In this document: positions 5,567 through 56,681 of the stretch, piece after piece
How the letters are laid out: each line of letters starts with the position of its first letter
Position numbering within the stretch: position 1 is the stretch's first letter
Notes under the pieces: generated by a model
Seen by the model: only the letters and a program-made list of their open reading frames with translations
Told to the model about the DNA's origin: nothing
Databases searched by the model: none
Origin: Bacteroidales bacterium
Lineage (GTDB): Bacteria > Bacteroidota > Bacteroidia > Bacteroidales > UBA932
Assembly (NCBI GenBank): GCA_017617475.1
Contig: JAFZWC010000021.1
Location: 4,777 to 68,776, forward strand
Length of the DNA: 64,000 nucleotides
Direction of reading: 5' to 3'
Program-made: the position numbers and the translations under genes

Positions 5567-6097
5567 CTACTCAAAGAAGGAGAAATGAACCCTTCCGTAA
5601 TGCTTTTCTTTCTTGAAATGCGGATGCCGGGTGAAGGAATGCTCGTCCCCGTGCTCCAGGATGAAGTAGCAGCCGGGATGAAGCAGGTCCAGGGAGAAGA
5701 TTTGGTCCGGAAGGGTTTCCAGGCCTTCCAGGGCATAGGGAGGGTCGGCGAAGATGATGTCGAACTTCTCGCGGCAGATGGGCAGGAAGTCAAAGACATT
5801 GTCCCGTACCATGGTCACATTGGACAGGCCCAGGCGGTCCGCCTCGGTTTTGATGAAACTGGCATTCTCGCGGGCCATTTCCACACAATAGACGCGGGAG
5901 GCCCCGCGGGAGGCGAACTCAAAGGCAATGGAGCCGGTACCTCCGAAAAGGTCCAGCACCTTGAGGTCTTCGAACTCGTATTCGTTGTCCAGGATATTGA
6001 ACAGGCCTTCCTTGGCAAAGTCCGTGGTGGGACGCGCCTTGTATCCTGCCGGTGGCAGAATCACTTTTCCCTTCAGTTTTCCGCCAATGATGCGCAT
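5567..6097 (-). CDS. rsmD: 16S rRNA (guanine(966)-N(2))-methyltransferase RsmD
   Basis: SAM-dependent methyltransferase that modifies G966 of 16S rRNA in the small subunit. The 176 residues start MRIIGGKLKGK, typical of RsmD. RPTTDFAKEGLFNIL at residues 22-36 is the family signature, VLDLFGGTGSIAFEFASRGA holds the SAM-binding loop, and the catalytic DPPY is at residues 118-121. Length and motif spacing are normal. It starts 4 bases after the upstream DUF3822 gene ends, a pairing common in Bacteroidota, so the two are likely one transcript. Confidence 0.96.
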   Translation of the reverse strand: MRIIGGKLKGKVILPPAGYKARPTTDFAKEGLFNILDNEYEFEDLKVLDLFGGTGSIAFEFASRGASRVYCVEMARENASFIKTEADRLGLSNVTMVRDNVFDFLPICREKFDIIFADPPYALEGLETLPDQIFSLDLLHPGCYFILEHGDEHSFTRHPHFKKEKHYGRVHFSFFE

Positions 6098-6800: not shown

Positions 6801-7502
6801 TTACTCCCAGTTACCTGCGTTGTTGTTAGGAGCGGTTACGCTGCCCACCTGCAGGCCTTCGAACTTGTTCTGGTCCTTGCGCTCGGCGTCCAGGTTGATG
6901 CGGAGCTGATTGTCCAGACCTTTGCACAGAGCCTTGTAAGGCATGCGGGCCTCGAACAGGGGAACATGAACACCGGAAACGAGCTTGATGGTGGATTCCA
7001 TCTCAGTCTTGACGCCACCGGAGAACGGGATGTAGGCCAGGGAATCGATGTGGAAATCCGGACGGTTGGTGAAGAGGGTATCCTTCACGGGCACCTGGGT
7101 GGTAACGGAATAAACCACGGGAGTTCCCTTCTTATAGGCATCCTGCAGAAGGACGAGCATCTGTTCGGGTTTGAGCTTCTTGTTGGCCTTCTTGATGGCT
7201 TCGGTGTTGGCGACGGCCAGGGAATCGTCCATGGAGCCGATCTGCATCACGATGGCCATTTTGCCGCTTTCATAGAACATCTTGAGGGAGTCCATGGTGG
7301 GGCTGAAACGGCCGGTCTCACTCTTGAAGGCTACCTGAAGGGTGCGGATGTCTTTCAGACGCTGGATGGCCACCTGAGAACGGGCGGCAACCTCCTTGTT
7401 GAATTTGACCGGCTTTTGGACGCTCTTGACCGTAAGCCAGACAAGAAGGACGATAAGGGCTGCCAGGGCGCACTCAAGTGCGATTTTGACTGATTTGTTC
7501 AT
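6801..7502 (-). CDS. Membrane-anchored protein of unknown function
   Basis: Not recognised beyond a likely Bacteroidota conserved hypothetical. The 233 residues have one N-terminal membrane helix (about residues 7-28), then a region rich in charged helices (AARSQVAIQRLKDIRTLQVAFKSETGRFSPTMDSLKMFY), which loosely recalls the N-terminal helix and start of pseudopilins. The remainder looks periplasmic. It ends with a polar NNNAGNWE tail. It leads the DUF3822-rsmD transcript and is divergent from the DHH phosphoesterase gene. A minus-strand TAnnTTTG match at 7538-7545 would give a leader of about 30 bases. Confidence 0.7.
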   Translation of the reverse strand: MNKSVKIALECALAALIVLLVWLTVKSVQKPVKFNKEVAARSQVAIQRLKDIRTLQVAFKSETGRFSPTMDSLKMFYESGKMAIVMQIGSMDDSLAVANTEAIKKANKKLKPEQMLVLLQDAYKKGTPVVYSVTTQVPVKDTLFTNRPDFHIDSLAYIPFSGGVKTEMESTIKLVSGVHVPLFEARMPYKALCKGLDNQLRINLDAERKDQNKFEGLQVGSVTAPNNNAGNWE

Positions 7503-51928: not shown

Positions 51929-52402
51929 ATGGAGATCAAACTCATCACGGTGGGAAAGACCGACGTCCAGTGGGTCAGGGAAGGCCTGGATCTGTACGGA
52001 TCCCGGATCAAACACTATGTCCCTTTTTCCGTGGTGGAGATCCCTGAACTCAAGAAAGTATCGGCCCTTTCCCAGGCCCAGATCAAAGAGAAGGAGGGCG
52101 AACTCATCCTCAAGCTGGTGGGGCCGCAGGACCTTCTGGTGCTGCTGGACGAGCACGGCCACGAATACCGCTCCCTGGAATTCGCCGACCACCTGCAGAA
52201 GCTCATGGCCCGCGGGGCCAAAAGCCTGGTGTTTGTGATAGGCGGCGCCTACGGCTTCTCCGATGCCGTATATAACCGCTCCTACGAGCGTATCTCCCTC
52301 TCCCGCATGACTTTCTCCCACCAGATGGTTCGCACGATTTTTGCGGAACAGCTGTACCGGGCTTTCACCATCCTCAAGGGAGAGCCTTATCACCATGAAT
52401 AG
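51929..52402 (+). CDS. rlmH: 23S rRNA (pseudouridine(1915)-N(3))-methyltransferase RlmH
   Basis: SPOUT-class methyltransferase that modifies pseudouridine 1915 in helix 69 of 23S rRNA. The 157 residues begin MEIKLITVGKTDVQWVREGLDLYGSRIKHYVPF. They carry LLDEHGHEYRSLEFADHLQ, LVFVIGGAYGFSDAVY and the C-terminal knot ISLSRMTFSHQMVRTIFAEQLYRAFTILKGEPYHHE, all diagnostic. The last codons overlap the start of the sensor kinase gene by 8 bases. Confidence 0.97.
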   Translation: MEIKLITVGKTDVQWVREGLDLYGSRIKHYVPFSVVEIPELKKVSALSQAQIKEKEGELILKLVGPQDLLVLLDEHGHEYRSLEFADHLQKLMARGAKSLVFVIGGAYGFSDAVYNRSYERISLSRMTFSHQMVRTIFAEQLYRAFTILKGEPYHHE

Positions 52403-55400
52403 GAAACGAATCATAGGGCAGTGGTGGGCTGTGGCACTTATGGTGGCCGCCGTCATTACCTATGTGATATCGGCCCTGGTGGGTACCGGAAGGTCGGATG
52501 TCACATCGGCCGCCCGGGAGATGAGCCGCAAGGTGGAAGCCCGCATGAACCTGCTGGACGCCTACATCGGGCAGGCGCTGGAGGGAGATTCCATGGCCTG
52601 GATGGACCTGCAGGGCCTTCCGGAAGACATGGTGGTTTACCGGTATGTTGACGATTCCCTCCAGAGCTGGGCCAACCAGTTTCCCCTCCGCAACGACGAT
52701 ATCCACCTGCGCACGCTGGTACAGCGGCTGGGAGACACCCGCAGCTCGCTGTCCTCGCCGTTGGGGGACGCATCCACCCTGCCCACATTCGTCAATTATG
52801 GTTCCAAGTGGTATCTGGTGAAAGCCGTCGAAGAGGACCAGAGCAAGATAGTGGCCGGTCTGGAGATTGTGAACGAAATCAGTTCGGCCACCCAGAGCGG
52901 GGTCAACCGCCATTTCCGCGTCAATGAAAGATACAGCGTCCGTCCTTTGTCGGCAGGCGTGGGCGCCCCCGTCTGCGTGAACGGAGAACCGCTGTTCCTG
53001 CTCACCGACGAAACCCTGGCCGAGCCGTCCGGCTCCCACACCGCCCTGCTGTGGCTGGCCATCGGCCTCCTGTTTGCCGGGCTCATCGTGATGCTGAGCG
53101 TCCATCCCACCCTCCCCTGGCTGACGGGCGTAATCCTGTGCCAGGCAGCCGTACTGGTGTGGCTGTACTTCAACGGAGCTCACTTGTTCCAGAACACCCA
53201 GCTCTTCTCTCCCCTCCTGTATGCCGACGGACCCCTCCTCTATTCGCTGGGCGCCGTGGTCCTGGTAAACCTGGGAATCAACCTGGTGGTCATGGACCTG
53301 TTCCTGGTGCGGTGGACCCTTCTCAAACAGGTCCGGCGCATCCATTCCCGTGCCTTGCAGTGGGTGCTGGCGGGGCTGTTGTGTCTGCTGTTCCTGGCCA
53401 TAGCCGCCTACCTGCACCTCACCTTCCGAAGCATCCTCATCAACTCCAGCATCAACCTGGAGCTGTATAAAGTGTTCCTGCTCAACGGCTATACGGCCGT
53501 GGTGTACATATCGTTCCTGGCGCTGTCCCTCACCCTGCCGGTGCTGCTCCAGATGCTGTCTCCTTTCGCCCGCGCCCTGCTGGGAATCCGCTACGACATC
53601 TTTACCCCCCTGGGCCGCCTTCTGTATGCCATTTGCATAGGCATCTACTTTGTGGTGGTCTCCTCCACCCTGGGCTTCAGCAAGGAACAGCGGCGCATTG
53701 ACGTATGGGCCGCCCGCCTGGCCATGGACCGCGACATAGCCCTGGAAATCCAGCTCCGCAGCGTGGAAAACGCCATAGCCGGCGACCCTATGATAGGCGC
53801 CCTGTCCGTCCTGGACGGCAGTGCCGACATTATCCGCAGCCGCCTCGCCAGCGCCTTCATGAGCCGCATCTCCCAGGATTACGACATCACGGTGGTCCTC
53901 CCCGGGGCCGATGTAAGCATGGGTAGCCTGTTCCAGGAACGCGTCCGCAACGGAACCCGCCTGGGAGACAATTCCCACTTCTTTTACAACAGCATGGGAG
54001 GAGGCCGAACCTCGTACTCCGGTCTGTTCTCCTATTATGTAGAAAATTATGGTTCCCGCCTGGTGCTCATCAGCGTGGAATCCAAGCATAACCGCGAAGA
54101 CAGGGGCTATCTGAGCCTCCTGGGCATCTCGGACCCGGGCCGCGTGTCCCTGCCGTCCGTCTACTCCTGGGCCAAGTACAACACCGACAAACTGGTACAG
54201 TACAAGGGCTCCTATGCCTTCCCCACCGTCTATTCCGGCCGTCTCCGCCAACTGGCCGAACAGCATTCCAAAGGTCATGTGGAACTGGAAGGCTGGACCC
54301 ACTTCGTGCGTAACGTCTCCGACGACGAAGTGGTAATCATTTCCCGCCACCAGACGGAATGGCTGTATTATGTGGTAGAGGCCTTCCTCTTCTCCATCCT
54401 GGCCTTCGGCCTCCTCACCTGGATCTCCTGGAGAAAACGCAATTCCGGCGGCCGACGCTACTTCCAGAACCGGATAAGCCTGGTGGTCTATTTCTCCCTG
54501 CTGGTTACCCTGGTGGCCATGGCCGTGTTCAGCGTCTGGTTCGTATACAAGCGCAACAACTCGGACATGAACAGCGTCATGACGGCCCGCATCAACACCC
54601 TGCAGGGCATGCTGCAGGAGCATCTGCGCCTGGTGGAGAATACGGAACAGCTTTCCACCACCCAGAACCTGGCCGCCGTGGAAGGCGTGGGCAACAACCT
54701 CCGCTGCGACATCACCCTCTTTGACGTGGCCGGCCGCGTGGTCATGAGCACCACCCCCGAAGTGTACGACCGCATGATCCTGGGGCATCGTCTGGACAAC
54801 GAAGCTTTCTACAACATCATATACGCCCACAAGCGTTATTACATGCAGAAGGAGCGCGTAAGCCGCCGCAGTTACTATGCCCTGTACGCCCCCGTGTTCA
54901 ACAGCAAGGGCGACATGGTGGCCATAGTGTCTTCCCCCTTCACAGACCTGTCCCAGGACTTTGAAAGCGAAGTTATCCTGCACGTAGCCACGGTTATCAC
55001 CATCTTCCTGCTGCTCCTGCTAATCTCCCGCTTCATCACCTTCCTCATGGTGAGCCGTCTGTTCCGTCCCCTCACGGCCCTCAGCCGCAAGATGACGGTG
55101 AGCGACGTGGACCACCTGGAGCCCCTGGTGTACGGCGGAGACGACGAGATTACCCCTTTGGTAGAGGCCTACAACCGCATGGTCCAGGTGCTGGGAGAAA
55201 GCTCCCGCCGCCTGGCGCAGGTGGAAAGGGACAAGGCCTGGACCGACATGGCCCGCCGCGTAGCGCACGACCTCAAGAACCCGCTCACGCCCATCAAGCT
55301 CCAGCTCCAGATGCTCATGCGCATGAAGGAGTCCGGCAACCCCGCCTGGCAGGACCGTTTTGACGAGGTAGCCTCCACCGTCCTGTATCACGTAGACCTC

Positions 55401-55901
55401 CTGGCCGATTCCGCCGACCAGTTCTCCACCTTCGCCAAGATGTACGACCAGAAGGCCGAAAGGATAGACCTGGATGCCCTGGTGCGCCAGGAAGTGGACC
55501 TCTTCGACTCCCGGGACGACGTGCAGATAGAATACTTCGGCCTGGAAGGCGCTTTTGTGCAGGCCCCGCGCCCGCAGCTCACCCGCGTGGTGGTGAACCT
55601 CATCACCAACGCCATCCAGGCGGTGGAAGACATCGAACCTCCGCGCCGCCTGCTGGTATCCGTGCGCAACGCCGCCGAAGACGGGTTCTACAACATTGTT
55701 GTGGAAGACAACGGCCCCGGCGTATCCGAACAGAACCAGGACAAGATCTTCACCCCCGACTTCACCACCAAGACCAGCGGTTCCGGCCTGGGACTGGCCA
55801 TCTGCAAACGTATCGTGGAGCACTGTGGCGGCACCATCGCCTACTCCCGCTCCTTCGCCCTGGGCGGCGCCTGCTTCACCATCACCATTCCTAAAGCCTA
55901 G
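52395..55901 (+). CDS. Large polytopic sensor histidine kinase (NtrY-like)
   Basis: A 1168-residue membrane histidine kinase. An N-terminal helix (about 8-28) and an exported domain are followed by a block of about six or seven helices (about 215-440), a further soluble domain, helices near 660 and 705, another sensor domain and a last helix near 870-895. Then come a HAMP domain, the phosphoacceptor His958 in RRVAHDLKNPLTPIK, the N box VVVNLITNAIQAVED, DNGPGVS and GSGLGLAICKRIVEHCGG. The HAMP-HisKA part is close to NtrY. The likely partner is the NtrC-like regulator at 56752-57900, with efp in between. Translationally coupled to rlmH. Confidence 0.92.
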   Translation: MNRKRIIGQWWAVALMVAAVITYVISALVGTGRSDVTSAAREMSRKVEARMNLLDAYIGQALEGDSMAWMDLQGLPEDMVVYRYVDDSLQSWANQFPLRNDDIHLRTLVQRLGDTRSSLSSPLGDASTLPTFVNYGSKWYLVKAVEEDQSKIVAGLEIVNEISSATQSGVNRHFRVNERYSVRPLSAGVGAPVCVNGEPLFLLTDETLAEPSGSHTALLWLAIGLLFAGLIVMLSVHPTLPWLTGVILCQAAVLVWLYFNGAHLFQNTQLFSPLLYADGPLLYSLGAVVLVNLGINLVVMDLFLVRWTLLKQVRRIHSRALQWVLAGLLCLLFLAIAAYLHLTFRSILINSSINLELYKVFLLNGYTAVVYISFLALSLTLPVLLQMLSPFARALLGIRYDIFTPLGRLLYAICIGIYFVVVSSTLGFSKEQRRIDVWAARLAMDRDIALEIQLRSVENAIAGDPMIGALSVLDGSADIIRSRLASAFMSRISQDYDITVVLPGADVSMGSLFQERVRNGTRLGDNSHFFYNSMGGGRTSYSGLFSYYVENYGSRLVLISVESKHNREDRGYLSLLGISDPGRVSLPSVYSWAKYNTDKLVQYKGSYAFPTVYSGRLRQLAEQHSKGHVELEGWTHFVRNVSDDEVVIISRHQTEWLYYVVEAFLFSILAFGLLTWISWRKRNSGGRRYFQNRISLVVYFSLLVTLVAMAVFSVWFVYKRNNSDMNSVMTARINTLQGMLQEHLRLVENTEQLSTTQNLAAVEGVGNNLRCDITLFDVAGRVVMSTTPEVYDRMILGHRLDNEAFYNIIYAHKRYYMQKERVSRRSYYALYAPVFNSKGDMVAIVSSPFTDLSQDFESEVILHVATVITIFLLLLLISRFITFLMVSRLFRPLTALSRKMTVSDVDHLEPLVYGGDDEITPLVEAYNRMVQVLGESSRRLAQVERDKAWTDMARRVAHDLKNPLTPIKLQLQMLMRMKESGNPAWQDRFDEVASTVLYHVDLLADSADQFSTFAKMYDQKAERIDLDALVRQEVDLFDSRDDVQIEYFGLEGAFVQAPRPQLTRVVVNLITNAIQAVEDIEPPRRLLVSVRNAAEDGFYNIVVEDNGPGVSEQNQDKIFTPDFTTKTSGSGLGLAICKRIVEHCGGTIAYSRSFALGGACFTITIPKA

Positions 55902-55907
55902 CTCGTA

Positions 55908-56019
55908 AGGGAGAGCCTACAAAAGGCGTAGACGCCCATGTCTCGTGAATGGGAGGGGCCCGCCGCGAAGCGGTGGGAGGGATAGCGCCGCAGGCGCGTA
56001 CCTTTTGTAGGCTCTCCCT
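55908..56019. repeat. 112-bp multi-hairpin element closed by a perfect 19-bp inverted repeat
   Basis: AGGGAGAGCCTACAAAAGG (55908-55926) pairs base for base with 56001-56019. The 74-base interior folds into hairpins. These are CCCAT/ATGGG (55935-55939 with 55949-55953), an 8-bp stem with a GAA loop (55959-55966 with 55970-55977) and GCGCC/GGCGC (55985-55989 with 55993-55997). A competing GGCG/CGCC (55925-55936) overlaps the outer stem. GGGAGGG occurs on both sides of the central hairpin. It starts 6 bases after the kinase stop codon and ends 21 bases before the efp promoter. No T-run follows, so it is not a plain terminator. It may be a mobile palindromic element or a structured RNA. Confidence 0.85.
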
Positions 56020-56040
56020 GGAGGGCAGGCTAAAAGAAAA

Positions 56041-56072
56041 TTTGCAGAAAAAGTGACAAATCATTAATTTTG
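56041..56072 (+). promoter_or_regulatory. Consensus Bacteroidota promoter of efp
   Basis: TTTG (56041-56044), 20 bases, then TAATTTTG (56065-56072). This fits the consensus boxes and spacing. The predicted start is near 56076, leaving an AT-rich leader of about 35 bases before the efp ATG. Confidence 0.78.
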
Positions 56073-56111
56073 CGTGATTTTTCGATTAATAATTAACTAA
56101 TAATACTTTTT

Positions 56112-56681
56112 ATGGCTACAACTGCTGATCTGAAGAACGGAATGTACATTATGTTCAACGGCAAGCCTTGCGCTGTTGTGTACTTCCAGCACGTAAAACC
56201 CGGCAAGGGCCCGGCCTTTGTCAAGACCAAACTCCGCAACCTGGAAAACGGCCGCATCCTGGAGAACACCTTCACCGCCGGTGTCAAGCTGGACACCATC
56301 ACCGTGGAGCGCCGTCCCTATCAGTTCCTGTATGACGACGGAGAGGCCTTCAACTTCATGCACGAAGAAACCTACGAGCAGATCACCCTTCCCCACGACG
56401 TAGTAGACAACGCCGACCTCATGAAGGAAGGCCAGCACGTGGAAATGATGTTCATGACAGAGCCCGAAGAGCGCTGCCTCACCTGCGAACTTCCCACCTA
56501 CGTAACCCTCGAAGTCACCTATTCCGAGCCTGCCGTGAAGGGCAACACCGCCAGCACCAGTGCCTTGAAGGAAGTCACCCTGGAGACCGGCGCCAAGATC
56601 ATGGTTCCCCTCTTCATCGAGACCGGCGAAATCATCACCGTGAACACCACCGACCGTTCCTACGGCCAGCGCGTGAAATAA
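56112..56681 (+). CDS. efp: Elongation factor P
   Basis: Translation factor (189 residues) that rescues ribosomes stalled on polyproline. MATTADLKNGMYIMFNGKPCAVVYFQHVKPGKGPAFVKTKLRNL is the typical KOW-like N-terminal domain, with the tip lysine in KPGKGPA that is modified in many bacteria. The OB domains end with VPLFIETGEIITVNTTDRSYGQRVK. It has its own promoter and an intrinsic terminator, so it is a single-gene unit set between the sensor kinase and the regulator genes. Confidence 0.98.
   Translation: MATTADLKNGMYIMFNGKPCAVVYFQHVKPGKGPAFVKTKLRNLENGRILENTFTAGVKLDTITVERRPYQFLYDDGEAFNFMHEETYEQITLPHDVVDNADLMKEGQHVEMMFMTEPEERCLTCELPTYVTLEVTYSEPAVKGNTASTSALKEVTLETGAKIMVPLFIETGEIITVNTTDRSYGQRVK

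Follow-up and report, generated by a model that had tools for sequence, protein, structure and literature searches.

A probably selfish family of dispersed palindromic elements in Bacteroidales, seen from one copy between a sensor kinase gene and efp

In a 64,000-nt stretch of a Bacteroidales genome (GenBank assembly GCA_017617475.1, contig JAFZWC010000021.1, positions 4,777 to 68,776 of the forward strand; the window, with positions counted from its first letter), a palindromic element stands between a sensor histidine kinase gene and a gene which we take to be efp, coding for elongation factor P. What is this structure, and why does it stand there? We consider it likely that the element belongs to a dispersed, probably selfish family of Bacteroidales palindromes, concentrated, as far as sampled, in rumen and gut species of a single family-level group. 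This family is apparently undescribed in the open-access literature searched, and it stands out by being concentrated in one clade, by its pseudoknot and by arms that match each other.

All parts of the element are given here on the forward strand. It is closed by two perfect 19-nt arms found both by inverted-repeat search and by the family model described below (55908-55926 and 56001-56019), which are 100% complementary and enclose 74 nt, exactly as in a preliminary description made from the letters of the window. It is the only perfect one among the nine inverted repeats listed within 200 nt, and the longest perfect inverted repeat at such spacing did not exceed 15 bp in 100 first-order Markov resamples, against the 19 bp observed. 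The predicted folding energy is -73.4 kcal/mol on the window strand (z -6.15) and -65.4 kcal/mol on the opposite strand (z -6.63); in either case none of 200 shuffles was equally stable. Inside the closing helix, hairpin P2 (55930-55943) pairs AGAC (55930-55933) with GTCT (55940-55943) around the loop GCCCAT, of which CCCAT (55935-55939) is able to pair with ATGGG (55949-55953) in a pseudoknot. There follow a first GGGAGGG repeat (55951-55957), hairpin P3 (CCCGCCGC-GAA-GCGGTGGG, 55959-55977), a second GGGAGGG repeat (55975-55981) and hairpin P4 (GCGCC-GCA-GGCGC, 55985-55997). The multi-hairpin interior, the GAA-loop hairpin and the direct repeats had all been recognised earlier and lie inside the element; the earlier reading missed the pseudoknot, which covaries in relatives, and the frequent position of those relatives within protein-coding sequence.

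Does the element belong to a family? A search with the pattern GGGAGGGGCCC-N(4-34)-GGGAGGG returned 54 matches across seven of eight genomes, and the reversed-pattern control gave 0. Fifty-seven stretches were collected and 51 aligned to build a covariance model, R1, after the exclusion of six with broken or odd arms or core (L227, L228, L233, L245, L251 and L223 at 2369-2508; L numbers denote loci and G numbers genomes). R1 matches the window at 55906-56023 with 81.1 bits (E 3e-20), the window copy being itself among the 51 sequences of the model; no second copy beyond chance was found in the window, where the next match has 15 bits (E 0.044). Matches were present in 15 of 15 related genomes reached via efp loci, with 1-41 in each at E<=1e-3. 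The 51 copies have in common, from 5' to 3', a closing helix, P2 with the loop RCCCNN, a short linker, NNGGG, AGGGG, P3 based on CCC/GGG, AGGG, usually P4, and the 3' arm; in other words, the family core is a hairpin with a CCCNN loop that pairs with a downstream NNGGG, then GGGAGGGGCCC-hairpin-GGGAGGG, and usually one more hairpin. Because the collecting pattern fixes GGGAGGGGCCC and GGGAGGG, the conservation of both in this alignment is partly due to selection of the copies; the pattern places no constraint on the arms, on P2 and P4, or on the fourth and fifth pseudoknot pairs.

Over 128 copies, the element has a median length of 121 bp (range 87-168) and arms of 14-40 nt (median 26), the script used having kept arms scoring at least 14 and stopped at 40. 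P4 is absent from the 13 G050 copies and from L215 and L231. Both the length and the sequence of P3 are variable; in L523 (1069 onward) and L493 (minus strand, 1501 onward), from genomes G067 and G521, it holds a nested repeat of about 100 nt with the base of P3 kept. The G-runs, including the first GGGAGGG, are interrupted or shortened in most G050 copies and G004 copies while P3 is still paired, and a G-quadruplex was rejected on these grounds as a general conserved feature. Nearly the same cores recur at different sites within one genome, as in G004, where seven copies have a mean core identity of 90%. Among 76 distinct 5' halves examined, there was no autonomous relative with an internal gene; of the seven that lacked a nearby 3' GGGAGGG or GGAGGG, four were point variants, one was a truncation and two were nested small repeats.

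The fold appears to be maintained through sequence change. Of the cells in the 51-copy alignment, 81.9% pair, and the covariation score was 0.466 against 0.172 (standard deviation 0.008) in shuffles, none of 500 of which reached it; when the partners were slid, it fell to 0.10-0.21. For pair types, a less decisive measure, the observed value was reached by 4 of the 500 shuffles. P2 covaries with 91.9% of its cells paired, and in the pseudoknot all 255 cells are paired: of its five pairs, three are invariant, the fourth occurs as U-A, G-C, A-U and C-G, and the fifth as two types. A second set, alignment A2, with 40 copies taken from four genomes and 39 distinct rows, had 95.5% of its cells paired (99.5% in the pseudoknot) and a score of 0.684 against 0.175, although it was fitted to the R1 structure and favours pairing in its own test. 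The preliminary description had suggested a structured element, perhaps from a mobile palindromic repeat family, and had proposed beforehand to look for copies and stem changes with a covariance model. Because many dispersed copies with compensatory changes were found, neither a lack of copies nor a lack of covariation holds; membership of such a family is well supported, and the structured nature of the element is supported. On the named sense strand, G.U outnumbers A.C by 15 to 1 in P2, with all 15 at one pair, and by 14 to 11 in P3; the sense strand is for this reason somewhat more likely than the antisense strand to be the folded one, which may apply to RNA and single-stranded DNA alike.

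How do the arms behave? Within four genomes, the 5' arms are 43-69% identical against 87-93% for the cores. In 122 copies, 2961 of 3145 arm cells are Watson-Crick pairs, 90 are G.U, 53 A.C and 41 other, and the corresponding numbers for the fitted set are 723 Watson-Crick and 10 G.U among 741; no arm was found for five copies (L227, L228, L233, L245 and L246), and what we say of arm matching covers the arm-bearing copies. Copies in mtaB whose two flanks are both 72-84% identical differ strongly in their arms, which have short stretches in common at best and are each largely self-complementary. A lasting match with few wobble intermediates fits either copying from arm to arm in the DNA or mobility restricted strictly to copies with matched arms. 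It would be tempting to suppose that the arms are always made from the target at insertion, but this was rejected as a general rule: in G050, nine of 13 copies have one common arm sequence with 0-2 changes, together with flanking similarity, so there the arms travel with the core and are not simply made anew for each target. Arms also decay after insertion, since one-sided changes occur among the copies of this young group (L461, L463, L464 and L465; those in L460 are two-sided). In several of the G050 copies (L453-L465), similarity passes the arms by a few tens of nucleotides, with an outer inverted repeat around ATTATCCGCAAAATTACC, and because of this extension the mobile unit in G050 may be longer than the arm-to-arm element.

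Many copies lie inside genes. Among 52 arm-bearing copies, 26 are within an open reading frame that spans the element and has 180 codons or more, and 22 are within a frame that matches Pfam or NCBIfam families, a count taken from copies sought via open frames, with frame-breaking copies outside it. The hosts are mtaB (four copies), ygiQ (three), truB and murB (two each), tilS, trmB, trmO, ribF, and genes for an MFS transporter, an ABC transporter, an M20 peptidase, a GH9/deacetylase protein, a class I/II aminotransferase, a GT2 glycosyltransferase and a periplasmic binding protein. The family match crosses the insert or flanks it on both sides in 18 of these 22 and lies on one side only in L211, L218, L242 and L248; nine copies are sense and 13 antisense to the host gene. 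Some sites are inter-domain, namely between UPF0004 and radical SAM in mtaB, between the halves of ribF, between TruB_N and TruB_C, and between the GH9 and deacetylase parts. The mtaB linker, which is hypervariable across the genomes compared, holds the element in 7 of 30 genomes (E<=5e-8; 29 of 30 linkers read), five times sense and twice antisense, and that of G004 has a weak R1 match (15 bits, E 0.17). The reading frame through the element differs between the mtaB copies, and no stop codon occurs within the mtaB matches listed. In ygiQ, the element is present at 4 of 28 loci, once sense and three times antisense, and the linker of G002 (L444) holds perfect 25-bp arms around a core remnant, with the frame kept. 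As orientation differs at the same site, there has been repeated insertion or in-place inversion. Such a pattern is what one expects of insertions sieved by selection for an open frame at tolerant sites. As a separate observation, genes for tRNA modification (mtaB, truB, tilS, trmB and trmO) host nine of the 22 gene-embedded copies (L206, L208, L211, L212, L214, L218, L230, L235 and L236), and a further copy, L390, is in a trmB-like frame.

How far does the family reach? At E<=1e-5, matches were found in 21 of 41 relatives of G001 and in 40 of 119 genomes of its family (G001 included in both), in 4 of 198 genomes across the order (G001 and G020, both within the family, G297 and G446), and in 1 of 198 across the phylum, which was the query G001 itself. 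Searches over more than 40 genomes scored up to 18-91 candidates per genome under strict filters, and weak or decayed copies were missed in them as a result. As far as sampled, the family is concentrated in a single family-level group, made up of rumen and gut species, which we presume to be GTDB family UBA932 or near it. Copy counts come from related genomes; the organism of the window is represented by these 64 kb, with one strong copy. In phage sequences, blastn with the window element gave no match, and exact core patterns of two subtypes gave 0 stretches each in viral_contigs; the first of these patterns matches 14 of 23 genomes, and such a genome control exists for that pattern only. The sole match in plasmid sequences was a 31-nt Azospirillum stretch.

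At the locus itself, the kinase gene (52341-55901, forward strand, with HATPase_c and sCache_3_3 domain matches) ends in a stop codon at 55899-55901; the element starts 6 nt later and ends 92 nt before the ATG at 56112 of the presumed efp (56112-56681, forward strand), a name carried over from the preliminary description, outside the family scan. No T-run follows the 3' arm (the 21 bases at 56020-56040 read GGAGGGCAGGCTAAAAGAAAA), and the element does not qualify as an intrinsic terminator; the sequence agrees with the earlier reading on this point and on the site. The efp protein is 100% identical in two uncultured Bacteroidia/Bacteroidales genomes (L001 and L002), and rumen or ruminant samples are the stated origin of many of the 80 efp loci kept. 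Run over these loci and the window at E<=0.01, R1 gave nine matches: three lie in L018, one is the window copy, and L053, L027, L033, L044 and L051 have a single match each. The kinase-efp gap of L018 holds a related element in the opposite orientation, and that of L012 is without one. In two L018 copies (5773-5912 and 6866-7005, minus strand), P3 holds a nested palindrome ATTGCCGG...CCGGCAAT, and in L013 and L016 similar stand-alone palindromes, CGTCATTCCCGG...CCGGGAATCTC, are found upstream of efp. The likeness of the nested palindrome to the CGTC-tagged repetitive extragenic palindromes (REPs) in the excerpt of PMC3733652 is one of name and visual impression only.

How might a selfish palindrome of this kind spread? 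We envisage that the folded single strand, either single-stranded DNA or sense RNA, would be the target recognised by a trans-acting enzyme during mobilisation, and that copies landing out of frame or at intolerant sites would be lost by selection. The arms could stay matched if only matched copies are mobile, if hairpin-templated repair copies one arm onto the other, or both. The window copy would then be an intergenic insertion just behind the kinase gene, for which no function in relation to kinase or efp would be required.

Several results weigh against this account. No movement was observed, and the comparison of empty with filled sites is one between species rather than between sister strains. 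Y1_Tnp genes are present in 12 of 15 genomes and were not matched in G009, G010 or G012, the last of which has 41 R1 matches. Across 34 of 37 Y1_Tnp neighbourhoods examined, there was one strong element match, inside a neighbouring trmB-like frame, and one weak match (18 bits); about 1-2 are expected by chance, an estimate that takes 134 kb of sequence and a density of 20-30 copies per 2.3 Mb. Reverse transcriptase genes were present in only 4 of 15 genomes, and reverse transcriptase was rejected as the driver on this count. Repeats of at least 4 nt, as expected of a target-site duplication, flank 9 of 126 copies against about 7 with shuffled partners, in a test where element boundaries are uncertain by a few bases. 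Because none of these searches gave a consistent association, the mechanism of movement is one that we only infer. As for the fold, pairs changed on both sides, a weaker measure, numbered 30 against 27.8 in the 51 copies (35 of 500 shuffles reach this), and pair types in the second set, at 77 against 75.5, were not above shuffles (196 of 500 reach it). Moreover, structure kept at orthologous sites could reflect a host function instead.

Among the rival explanations, the one that survives best, which we regard as possible though doubtful, is a REP-type element moved as single-stranded DNA by a Y1 HUH transposase (REP-associated tyrosine transposase, RAYT, or TnpA-REP), with an atypical structure like that of the Bacteroidetes-specific subclass 2.6. 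The wide occurrence of Y1_Tnp genes and the in-frame intragenic REPs described in the excerpt of PMC3733652 speak for it; against it stand the single strong match near these genes, no more than chance would give, the many copies in G012, and the presence of GT[AG]G at the foot of P2 in just 24 of 51 copies. Somewhat less likely still, in our judgement, is a new class of small mobile element whose spread would depend on a pseudoknotted single strand, whose mover may be an enzyme so far unconnected with REPs and MITEs (miniature inverted-repeat transposable elements), and whose arms would rewrite themselves: a change in one arm would pass to the other within the DNA, leaving copies at one site of one gene, in different species, with strongly different arms of almost perfect self-complementarity.

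A cis-acting mRNA structure, such as a 3' stabiliser, an attenuator or a regulatory RNA, multicopy in the manner of intergenic REPs, bacterial interspersed mosaic elements (BIMEs) or enterobacterial repetitive intergenic consensus (ERIC) sequences, seems improbable. The window copy, 6 nt past a stop codon and co-directional with both neighbours, is placed as such a structure would be, and covariation is strong. The excess of G.U over A.C in the sense-strand arms also points that way (binomial p 0.0025, the copies not being independent), tempered by G.T being the milder mismatch in DNA too. However, host genes are unrelated, and because the majority of gene-embedded copies are antisense to the gene, the sense RNA of those 13 would lie outside the host mRNA. 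The mRNA 3' stabiliser put forward earlier likewise lacks support as an account of the family at large, since 22 of 52 copies are intragenic. A family of trans-acting small RNAs with their own promoters would account for the conserved pseudoknotted core and its presence in all 15 related genomes searched, but up to 41 matches per genome, many in frame within genes, are unusual for a small RNA, and no Rfam match reached the gathering score for window 55500-56500 or ten loci (the best sub-threshold match being MIR1223, a microRNA precursor model, on L483, with 41.6 of 77 bits and E 5.8e-7); we think this very unlikely. A segment removed or skipped in expression, as a tiny intron or translational bypass hairpin, would explain a long closing helix within conserved genes and the copies in essential ones, but is scarcely credible, since splicing or bypass needs no open frame and the element leaves the frame unbroken in the 22 genes with family support (a collection based on open frames), mtaB copies are read in different frames and the core-deleted ygiQ remnant is still in frame.

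If the elements are selfish palindromes, their interest goes beyond this locus. In-frame selfish palindromes in working genes are best known from Rickettsia, and uncultured rumen bacteria would widen that range, with replicate insertions in the same gene available in mtaB, ygiQ and truB. The copies offer a natural experiment, both in how the two halves of an inverted repeat remain matched during sequence turnover and in how new peptide segments enter conserved enzymes. They also call for caution in the annotation and structure prediction of Bacteroidales metagenome-assembled genomes, where such inserts are probably transposon-like.

How does the family compare with known systems? The 31-nt plasmid stretch of the window core is identical in three Azospirillum records (L201-L203), but the GGGAGGGGCCC-hairpin-GGGAGGG repeats of Azospirillum and viruses have other surroundings, typically GGGAGAGGGAGGGGCCC...GGGAGGGTGAGGG among the matches listed, and none of 19 loci of this type exceeds 34 bits in R1 scoring, where the window copy has 81. 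Such repeats are common in viral_contigs among the matches listed, and many viral contigs of about 6-10 kb (L087, L091, L097, L119 and others) carry GCGAGCATTTTGGGAGGGGCCCGCTTTGCGGGAGGGACCTAAAAGCGGAGC followed by a CCCCCG hairpin, which, at a guess, may be a replication origin of a small phage family.

The preliminary description's "REP or MITE-like" holds as far as a dispersed palindrome goes, and not as far as a standard member of either class. MITEs are likewise short, multicopy and without a gene inside, and have inverted-repeat ends; unlike them, the family has arms that differ between copies of one genome (the nine G050 copies excepted), no target-site duplication among the 126 copies, and no longer gene-bearing relative among the 5' halves examined. 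REPs and BIMEs with RAYT are also dispersed palindromes, intergenic and sometimes intragenic, whose folded strand is presumed to be recognised, and REPs in frame inside genes, with GTAG and CGTC tags, are described in the excerpt of PMC3733652. However, a REP is a simple hairpin of 20-40 bp, far from the family median; the guide GTAG/GTGG at the hairpin foot, although present in the window copy as GTAG at 55928-55931, is absent from the P2 foot of over half the copies and its positions covary with their partners; and the element does not flank a cognate transposase gene beyond chance. A mostly Bacteroidetes transposase subclass, 2.6, is noted for "atypical secondary structures" in the excerpt of PMC6006769, and the present family may be linked to it. 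The closest likeness, compared by description, is to the Rickettsia palindromic elements (RPEs), which, in the excerpts of PMC10969869 and PMC3733652, are palindromes of about 150 bp in several families that lie in frame within unrelated metabolic genes. Similar size, palindromic form and in-frame insertion in protein-coding genes are common to both, while the present family differs in phylum, in its pseudoknotted multi-hairpin core and in its copy-specific arms. Thus, the best reading is a selfish palindromic element that behaves like RPEs or REPs, yet forms a new family with a distinctive architecture.
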